A DNA stretch of 32,384 bases from an uncultured Eubacterium sp. (lineage in GTDB: Bacteria > Bacillota > Clostridia > Oscillospirales > Acutalibacteraceae), in contig CAJOJV010000036.1 in NCBI GenBank assembly GCA_905234995.1, positions 1-32,384 of the forward strand. The letters run 5' to 3'. Every line of letters begins with the position of its first letter. The first letter of the stretch is position 1. Below are positions 23,695 to 23,958 of the stretch, in pieces. The position numbers were made by a program, and so were the translations under genes. The notes beneath the pieces are model-generated. The model searched no databases, was not told where the DNA came from, and worked only from the letters and a program-made list of their open reading frames with translations.

Positions 23695-23744
23695 TTAAAA
23701 TAAAATGCGCCCATTATATGCAAAATTATGCATAAAATGAACGC
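23695..23744 (-). terminator. Attenuator terminator in the glnA leader
   Basis: On the minus strand GCGTTCATTTTATGCA, loop TAATTT, TGCATATAATGGGCGC: 16 positions with two G-T wobbles and one mismatch, then ATTTTATTTT. It lies between the glnA promoter and its ATG, and its 5' arm shares GTTCAT with the ANTAR-type hairpin 23737-23754, so the two cannot form together. Confidence 0.7.
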
Positions 23745-23754
23745 CTTTGCTCAT
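23737..23754 (-). promoter_or_regulatory. ANTAR-type six-base-loop hairpin at the 5' end of the glnA transcript
   Basis: On the minus strand ATGAGC-AAAGGC-GTTCAT: a 5-6 bp stem (one G-T) closing loop AAAGGC with A1 and G4. The predicted start (about 23753) puts it at the very 5' end. Only one such hairpin is visible in this leader; known ANTAR sites usually have two. Confidence 0.6.
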
Positions 23755-23759
23755 AAAAT

Positions 23760-23788
23760 AATATATAATACGGAAAACGCTATGTCAA
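23760..23788 (-). promoter_or_regulatory. Promoter of glnA
   Basis: On the minus strand TTGACA (23783-23788), 17 bp, TATATT (23760-23765). Its -35 is 20 bp from the -35 of the divergent gdhA promoter. Confidence 0.75.
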
Positions 23789-23808
23789 GAAAAAATTTCA
23801 AAAAAGGC

Positions 23809-23837
23809 TTGACAACTGCATTTTGATAGTGTAGTAT
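23809..23837 (+). promoter_or_regulatory. Promoter of gdhA
   Basis: TTGACA (23809-23814), 17 bp, TAGTAT (23832-23837). The implied start is about G23844, 140 nt upstream of the gdhA ATG. The 323-bp glnA-gdhA gap is filled by two promoters and two attenuator leaders. Confidence 0.8.
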
Positions 23838-23845
23838 TATTGCGT

Positions 23846-23863
23846 AAAGGCAACGGGGTCTTT
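23846..23863 (+). promoter_or_regulatory. ANTAR-type hairpin 1 in the gdhA leader
   Basis: AAAGGC-AACGGG-GTCTTT: 6-bp stem with one G-T pair, loop AACGGG with A1 and G4. It starts about +3 and its 3' arm lies in the 5' arm of terminator 23854-23892. Confidence 0.65.
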
Positions 23864-23892
23864 GAGCATACGCTCAAGGACTCCGCTTTTTT
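23854..23892 (+). terminator. First attenuator terminator of gdhA
   Basis: CGGGGTCTTTGAGC (23854-23867), loop ATAC, GCTCAAGGACTCCG (23872-23885): 14 bp with two G-T wobbles, then C and six T. A strong intrinsic terminator between promoter and gene. Confidence 0.85.
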
Positions 23893-23905
23893 AATTTCAT
23901 AAATC

Positions 23906-23921
23906 AAGGCAAAGGCGTCTT
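23906..23921 (+). promoter_or_regulatory. ANTAR-type hairpin 2 in the gdhA leader
   Basis: AAGGC-AAAGGC-GTCTT: 5-bp stem with one G-T pair, loop AAAGGC with A1 and G4, identical to the glnA loop. Its 3' arm lies in the 5' arm of terminator 23913-23958. Confidence 0.65.
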
Positions 23922-23958
23922 TATTGTATTTTTATACACTAAAGAAGCCTCTTTTTTT
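23913..23958 (+). terminator. Second attenuator terminator of gdhA
   Basis: AGGCGTCTTTA pairs with TAAAGAAGCCT (one mismatch) outside an inner GTAT-TTTT-ATAC hairpin, then C and seven T (23952-23958). The gdhA ribosome binding site follows 8 nt later. Confidence 0.8.

Follow-up and report, generated by a model that had tools for sequence, protein, structure and literature searches.

The 326-nt spacer between the divergent genes glnA and gdhA of an uncultured Eubacterium sp. contains three hairpins whose six-base loops carry A at the first and G at the fourth position (A1 and G4), one on the glnA side and a tandem pair facing gdhA, and the 3' arm of each falls within the 5' arm of an intrinsic terminator. 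We propose that these leaders are a single-hexaloop variant of ANTAR antitermination that runs a nitrogen/glutamine regulon, a reading to which we assign a probability of roughly 0.77. It draws on the anatomy of the leaders, their conservation, covariation in their stems, their fixed position relative to the promoter, their co-occurrence with ANTAR genes, and the nitrogen and glutamine genes that they precede. The stretch of DNA that was analyzed, hereafter the window, comprises positions 1-32,384 of contig CAJOJV010000036.1 (GCA_905234995.1), and its relevant features are compiled in Table 1.

Table 1. Genes, promoters, and leader elements in the window.
Feature	Positions	Strand	Remarks
ANTAR protein gene, 193 aa	21763..22344	-	directly 3' of glnA, same direction; pseudo-receiver, coiled coil, ANTAR
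glnA, glutamine synthetase, 405 aa	22442..23659	-	Pfam Gln-synt_C/Gln-synt_N
glnA leader intrinsic terminator	23698..23744	-	hairpin 23744-23707, then T-rich tail; contains the hexaloop 3' arm
glnA leader hexaloop hairpin	23737..23754	-	atgagc-AAAGGC-gttcat; A1 23748, G4 23745; at predicted +1
glnA promoter	23760..23788	-	TTGACA-17-TATATT, 11/12 match; sigma-70-like
gdhA promoter	23809..23837	+	TTGACA-17-TAGTAT, 10/12 match; sigma-70-like
gdhA leader hexaloop hairpin 1	23845..23864	+	taaaggc-AACGGG-gtctttg; A1 23852, G4 23855; predicted +1 to +2
gdhA leader terminator 1	23854..23892	+	hairpin 23854-23885, T-run to 23892
gdhA leader hexaloop hairpin 2	23906..23921	+	aaggc-AAAGGC-gtctt; A1 23911, G4 23914
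gdhA leader terminator 2	23913..23958	+	hairpin 23913-23950, T-run to 23958
gdhA, NADP-specific glutamate dehydrogenase	23983..25317	+	
degenerate fourth element before pyrG	25399..25455	+	loop AAAAGC, 3-bp stem, terminator -16.8 kcal/mol
pyrG, CTP synthase	25485..27092	+	elements before pyrG in seven other genomes

An earlier reading of this DNA made from its letters alone (the sequence-only reading) had placed divergent promoters with 17-bp spacers between the two genes, and both are present. The transcript starts that it had proposed, at about 23753 (-) and about 23844 (+), follow from the positions of these promoters, and both outermost hairpins begin at the predicted +1. Its six-base loops (AAAGGC for glnA, AACGGG and AAAGGC for gdhA) were found where Table 1 places them, and folding confirmed the overlap of stem and terminator that it had claimed for both transcripts: in all three cases the terminator forms when the 3' portion of the loop, together with the 3' arm, pairs instead with sequence further downstream. 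Three corrections apply. The glnA side has a single hexaloop and no canonical pair; on the gdhA side the second hexaloop follows the first at a distance of 59 nt, a terminator intervening; and a fourth, degenerate element precedes pyrG. It is this single hexaloop per terminator, a property that the earlier reading did not point out, that is unusual in these leaders.

Folding strongly favors the terminators over the competing hairpins. The glnA terminator and gdhA terminators 1 and 2 have predicted energies of -20.1, -24.5, and -15.5 kcal/mol (z = -5.6, -7.7, and -5.0) and the corresponding hexaloop hairpins -4.8, -5.2, and -3.2 kcal/mol, the terminator being favored by 12 to 19 kcal/mol across the three modules. 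When the spacer was screened with a filter that requires a hexaloop, an overlapping single-hairpin terminator, and a T-run, three modules were observed against a mean of 0.003 in shuffled sequence, and three or more occurred in none of 1000 shuffles. The same filter yielded four matches over the 32-kb window, the fourth at 6754 (+) within a coding region, and 13 matches in 388,608 bp of shuffled sequence, or about 1.1 per window. The single match outside the spacer is close to this expectation, and the improbable part is the clustering in the spacer.

The two-sided arrangement is conserved among relatives. A clear glnA match is present in 73 named loci; in 13 of them a divergent gdhA lies within 3.5 kb, and a hairpin-terminator was found on the gdhA side in all 13 and on the glnA side in 12, the exception being L262. 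Alignment of relatives' spacers had been named in the sequence-only reading as a check on its proposal, and the two-sided hairpin-terminator in 12 of these 13 loci speaks in favor of it. A second gdhA element was detected at E <= 0.05 in seven of the 13 (L189, L191, L193, L194, L213, L226, and L259), L213 being the same locus as training locus L034 of the model described below, and on its glnA side L259 likewise carries a pair. Metagenome bins called Eubacterium sp. account for six of the nine loci that were read first. The spacer scan requires A1 and G4, such that neither is an independent outcome of it; loop position 3 varies freely among the elements recovered. Spacers reach 2.7 kb in L189 and 1.9 kb in L192. 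In five of 10 spacers (L189, L193, L194, L226, and L256), the glnA hairpin appeared by eye to lie about 20 nt further from the -10 hexamer than it does in the window, and the +1 position is therefore common but not absolute. A first, strict scan for gagc-AAAGGC-gttc within 300 nt before glnA had recovered only three of 41 sequences, including the window. We rejected non-conservation of the glnA hairpin as its explanation, since the low count arises mainly because GOGAT genes often precede glnA and the leader then lies kilobases upstream.

No Rfam family reached its gathering score in the spacer, and seven sub-threshold matches (E up to 1) belonged to unrelated families and were rejected. A covariance model, R1, was therefore built from 27 training elements of relatives; the terminator is the sole structure that it models, the hexaloop pairs having been left out. 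Training elements were chosen for their hairpin, terminator, and C-G closing pair, so that their own pairing counts are partly built in. R1 matched 69 of 197 genomes of the order at E <= 0.01 and 57 of 391 genomes of the class at E <= 0.001, some of the latter being shared with the order set. The order search returned at least 147 matches, which form 84 clusters among the matches listed (none listed for G145 and G183). From these clusters 80 regions were taken, overlapping stretches covering two more, while G081 and one G074 cluster (C6) were left out; 66 genomes were sampled in this way. The 80 stretches and the window gave 178 R1 matches, of which 150 were aligned, and 134 non-overlapping elements were kept after one duplicated place and overlaps had been dropped, representing 64 genomes. 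A1 is present in all 134 kept elements and G4 in 131, a conservation that is partly built into the model.

The genes downstream of these elements are predominantly those of nitrogen assimilation: type III glutamine synthetase (GSIII, 55), glutamate synthase (GOGAT, 38), pyrG (8), amtB (7), gdhA (6), glnA (4), and purA (4), with one each of purF, guaA, asnB, dapF, and a dihydropyrimidinase-type gene, and seven others. Accordingly, 127 of the 134 elements precede genes of nitrogen, amino-acid, or nucleotide metabolism, a count that includes the single dapF and dihydropyrimidinase-type cases. Some gene labels were provisional at first; nine representative proteins, one set of which covered gdhA, served to check amtB, purA, purF, asnB, dapF, and the dihydropyrimidinase. 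The seven others probably include false matches; two of the three elements that have no G4 are among them. Among individual cases, elements stand before guaA and pyrG at L109/L110 (G071) and before purF, asnB, and purA at L124 (G130), L144 (G023), L167, L168, L172, and L175. As judged from gene content, the putative switch reaches glutamine-using and nucleotide-synthesis genes.

The degenerate pyrG leader of the window was rejected as a full member for the window's clade, since A1 or G4 is altered there, as judged by eye: G4 is replaced by A in the window, and A1 apparently by G in L191, L192, and L256. Given the elements before pyrG in seven other genomes, ANTAR control of this gene may be in the course of being lost here.

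In many relatives, a gene string of the three GOGAT subunits (Pfam GATase_2, Glu_synthase, and GXGXG), glnA, and the ANTAR gene runs divergently from the type III glutamine synthetase. GSIII, GOGAT, glnA, and the ANTAR gene occur together with elements at L246 of Agathobaculum desmolans ATCC 43058, a cultured relative; Neglectibacter timonensis (L266) is another cultured relative with a homolog of the ANTAR protein. Elements face away from each other in 31 of 81 sources, 29 of them between GOGAT and GSIII and two between glnA and gdhA. The sequence-only reading had regarded both this two-sided use and the placement of the site at +1 as unusual, and neither view held up. With regard to placement, 84 of the 134 elements have a promoter matching at least 5/6 in both hexamers with its -10 ending 12-17 nt before A1, as compared to 0.12 in shuffled upstream sequence; 88 of 93 strong promoters have a spacer of 17; and 84 of 85 leaders have the first base of the stem between predicted 0 and +5. 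Since the stem begins there, no room is left for an upstream hairpin.

Stem covariation was evaluated on 79 unique sequences among 107 elements from 54 genomes, the ten training-source genomes having been left out. Counting from the loop, pairs 3, 4, and 5 form in 76, 76, and 71 of the 79 sequences, with maxima of 68, 67, and 53 over 1000 shuffles. Pair 1 is an invariant C-G and pair 2 forms in all 79 and nearly so in the shuffles, such that both are uninformative; pair 6 (66/79) equals the shuffled maximum, and pairs 7-8 have no support. Stems also differ by downstream gene, being GAGC/GTTC in 30 of 38 GOGAT leaders and AGGC/GTCT in 52 of 55 GSIII leaders. The mixed type, AGGC with GTTC, occurs in just one of the 134 elements, that before pyrG in the window, even though R1 would accept mixed stems because it models no hexaloop pairs. 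Related sequences share stems, and independent changes are therefore fewer than these counts. Compensatory changes with A1 and G4 held fixed were the outcome that the sequence-only reading had named as favorable, and the stems do covary around a nearly constant A1 and G4.

The single hexaloop sets these leaders apart from the ANTAR targets described. Two hexaloops joined by a short linker are reported to be required in vivo in the EutV system, in which the natural Enterococcus faecalis eut linkers are 5-12 nt long (PMC3369931), and ANTAR target searches have used linkers of 2-25 nt (PMC8164766). All three spacer elements share with this dual-hairpin class the A1/G4 hexaloop, which the pyrG element of the window does not because of its G4, and the overlap of the stem with the terminator 5' arm; they do not have two stem-loops with a short linker. 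No second ANNGNN hexaloop with at least three pairs was found in the glnA leader of the window, and a second hexaloop within 2-25 nt was found in 11 of 85 first-position leaders versus 8.5 in shuffles, no excess over chance. Two elements were detected in 19 leaders, before GSIII (15/40), gdhA (2/4), and amtB (2/5), whereas the 38 glutamate-synthase and four glnA leaders have one detected element each. In all but one of the 19, a distance of 59-97 nt separates the copies and the first element's own terminator stands between them; in the other (L138) the distance is about 407 nt. It is unlikely, in our estimation, that the leaders operate by canonical dual-hairpin attenuation, with the second hexaloop being the tandem copy or one that was missed. 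The tandem leaders and the glnA side of L259 suggest such a mode, as a dimeric ANTAR protein could cycle between copies, but the spacing of the copies exceeds both of the linker ranges above, and the leaders with a single detected element, including that of glnA in the window, argue against it. In Walshe 2022, the ANTAR dimer was shown to engage hexaloops one at a time and the reach of single-hexaloop sites was posed as a question, such sites being supposed possible in the absence of a transcriptional time limit (PMC8934654).

A candidate regulator is encoded directly 3' of glnA. Its protein matches Pfam ANTAR (PF03861) at 48.3 bits against a curated cut-off of 27.3, with no receiver match in Pfam at E <= 0.001, and a profile of its homologs searched against the PDB matches Rv1626, AmiR, EutV, and NasR. 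The AlphaFold model (mean pLDDT 87.5, pTM 0.65) has EutV, Rv1626, and AmiR as its top fold matches, RNA-bound EutV giving the highest query-normalized TM-score among the matches listed (0.79) and AmiR 0.64. Asn59 aligns with the phospho-acceptor Asp of Rv1626, and because Asn is invariant at this position (36/36 homologs), the receiver domain is taken to be a pseudo-receiver like that of AmiR; the phospho-acceptor Asp of the phosphorylated response-regulator type exemplified by EutV is absent. Residues that contact RNA in EutV were mapped with an ungapped phmmer alignment, with a two-residue numbering offset set by matching residues named in Walshe 2022 (PMC8934654). The equivalents of Lys149, Glu160, and Met172 are invariant in the family of the window protein, while Arg142, Tyr164, Arg168, Asn173, Arg175, and Arg177 are replaced in the window protein by Ile, His, Glu, Asp, Cys, and Ser, respectively; AmiR likewise has His at the Tyr164 position. 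Spo0A (15984-16784, -), one of four proteins tested by Pfam, has no ANTAR domain and was rejected as a candidate.

The gene arrangement is also conserved: in all 40 relatives examined from the same taxonomic order (of 113 genomes with a homolog), the ANTAR gene is immediately preceded by glnA. A cluster of the NitR type reportedly comprises an ANTAR gene adjoining glnA together with GOGAT genes, and the adjacency of glnA and the upstream GOGAT subunits in relatives correspond to this make-up. In the window itself, gdhA is the neighbor and no GOGAT gene lies between the promoter and glnA. A stretch between glnA and the ANTAR gene (22378-22440) is GC-rich and appeared partly palindromic; no inverted repeat was found with an exact seed, and since the genome holds just one other partial copy (84% identity over 38 of its 63 bases), the segment is probably not a large repeat family. 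Elsewhere in the window, the ORF at 12041-12553 (+) resembles a REP-associated tyrosine transposase, and two ORFs at 28999-30200 (+) may be an IS3-type transposase pair.

Elements co-occur with ANTAR genes. Within the order, an ANTAR gene is present in 114 of 197 genomes, and elements (E <= 0.01) were detected in 64 of these 114 versus five of the 83 without one (Fisher p = 1.6e-14, a value that overstates independence because the genomes are related); at E <= 0.001, the numbers are 51 and 2. Genomes with the closest homologs of the window protein have an element in 42 of 45 cases, and in two of the remaining three the ANTAR gene lies within about 110 bases of the contig start, such that the leader may simply be missing. 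Collectively, this association, the stem covariation, the two-sided conservation, and the glnA-linked ANTAR gene support the ANTAR-attenuator interpretation of the sequence-only reading.

The switch could also be real and have an operator other than the glnA-linked ANTAR protein, such as a second ANTAR protein, another RNA-binding protein, or a choice of start site that trims the 5' arm, a possibility that we regard as about as doubtful as a dual-hairpin mode. The genome does encode a second ANTAR gene (L002 1477-2010, -, contig C47), whose end runs slightly into the diaminopimelate epimerase gene dapF that follows it, and at L165, in a different genome, dapF itself is immediately preceded by an element. 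Moreover, G083 and G097 have strong elements and no detected ANTAR gene, and start-site choice would alter a stem that begins at about the predicted +1. Against these points, an element precedes the glnA-linked ANTAR gene within its own gene string, elements occur in nearly all genomes with its closest homologs, and A1, G4, and the closing pairs are of the ANTAR type, with a constancy of the loop that start choice leaves unexplained. That the leaders are ordinary constitutive terminators or mRNA-protecting 5' hairpins with an accidental likeness to ANTAR hexaloops is less probable still, for although the terminators are strong and might work by themselves and a 5'-terminal hairpin can stabilize an mRNA, chance clustering in the spacer is very unlikely, and the near invariance of A1 and G4, the stem covariation, and the association with ANTAR genes would all be left unexplained.

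The single-hexaloop ANTAR reading has points counted against it as well: the window leaders do not have the second hexaloop that the EutV system needed, L262 has no glnA-side element, six EutV contact residues differ, 50 of the 114 genomes with an ANTAR gene yielded no element at E <= 0.01 while five without a detected ANTAR gene have one, and the genome has a second ANTAR protein.

Among described systems, EutV-eutP of E. faecalis is close in its A1/G4 hexaloop, closing C-G, 3' arm within the terminator, and ANTAR regulator (PMC3369931, PMC8934654), three RNA contacts of which are kept in the window protein as noted above. The closing C-G followed by A-U or G-U seen here resembles the closing pairs that are reported to matter in EutV targets (PMC3369931). 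The systems differ in their target genes, in the phosphorylation of EutV on Asp54 as opposed to Asn in the window protein, and in the two linked hexaloops of eutP versus one per terminator at the predicted +1. AmiR of Pseudomonas aeruginosa is likewise a pseudo-receiver ANTAR protein and is controlled by binding of AmiC, yet its amiE leader is described as dual-hexaloop (PMC3369931). NitR of Clostridium saccharobutylicum is an ANTAR regulator of GS/GOGAT genes that is said to antiterminate on nitrogen limitation, with induction of the cluster and antisense RNAs also reported (Stutz 2007, as cited in PMC6316151); as in relatives of the window, the ANTAR protein is tied to glutamine synthetase and GOGAT genes. 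About 400 dual-stem ANTAR targets were predicted in firmicutes and proteobacteria (Ramesh 2012; PMC8164766), and these resemble the present set in comprising multi-operon regulons and nitrogen genes, including those of glutamine and glutamate synthesis, with terminator overlap in part of the matches. Because those searches used two stem-loops, single-hexaloop leaders could have been missed or mis-scored. ANTAR regulation of nitrogen genes, and of GS/GOGAT by NitR, is thus already known. In our searches of the openly available literature, we recognized no report of single-hexaloop glnA, GSIII, or GOGAT ANTAR leaders, nor did these searches bring up an architecture of single hexaloops fixed at +1 in tandem or divergent array, or a reach of such leaders to pyrG, purF, guaA, purA, and asnB.

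We envision that, by default, the nascent leader RNA would fold into the intrinsic terminator soon after transcription starts. When the nitrogen state is appropriate, the ANTAR protein whose gene lies directly 3' of glnA would bind the hexaloop at the very start of the leader RNA and keep the 3' arm of the hairpin out of the terminator, and polymerase would then continue into glnA and the ANTAR protein's own gene, or into gdhA. This direction of control is suggested by analogy with the ANTAR family. With one hexaloop per terminator, tandem copies (gdhA, GSIII, and amtB) would constitute two switches in series. Sensing might take place through the pseudo-receiver, perhaps via contact with glutamine synthetase. 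Because glutamine-using biosynthetic enzymes are among the putative targets, we speculate that the signal is the glutamine state and not ammonium alone.

A broader proposition, which we consider an even bet, is that single-hexaloop +1 leaders form a class of their own among ANTAR antiterminators, acting co-transcriptionally and widespread in Clostridia, and that a pseudo-receiver ANTAR protein encoded with, and perhaps controlled by, glutamine synthetase relies on them for the main nitrogen/glutamine control in these gut bacteria, which would span GS/GOGAT, ammonium uptake, and glutamine-using nucleotide enzymes. To our knowledge, uncultured gut Clostridia lie outside the GlnR/TnrA paradigm. 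If the proposition is correct, the dual hexaloop would be dispensable at sites that emerge from the polymerase ahead of all other RNA. The natural single-hexaloop candidates sit exactly where the transcriptional time limit applies, and the question posed by Walshe 2022 is therefore directly testable with short leader templates. The leaders would also delineate a nitrogen regulon in many uncultured gut Clostridia, and they would explain how searches for two-hairpin targets could miss it.
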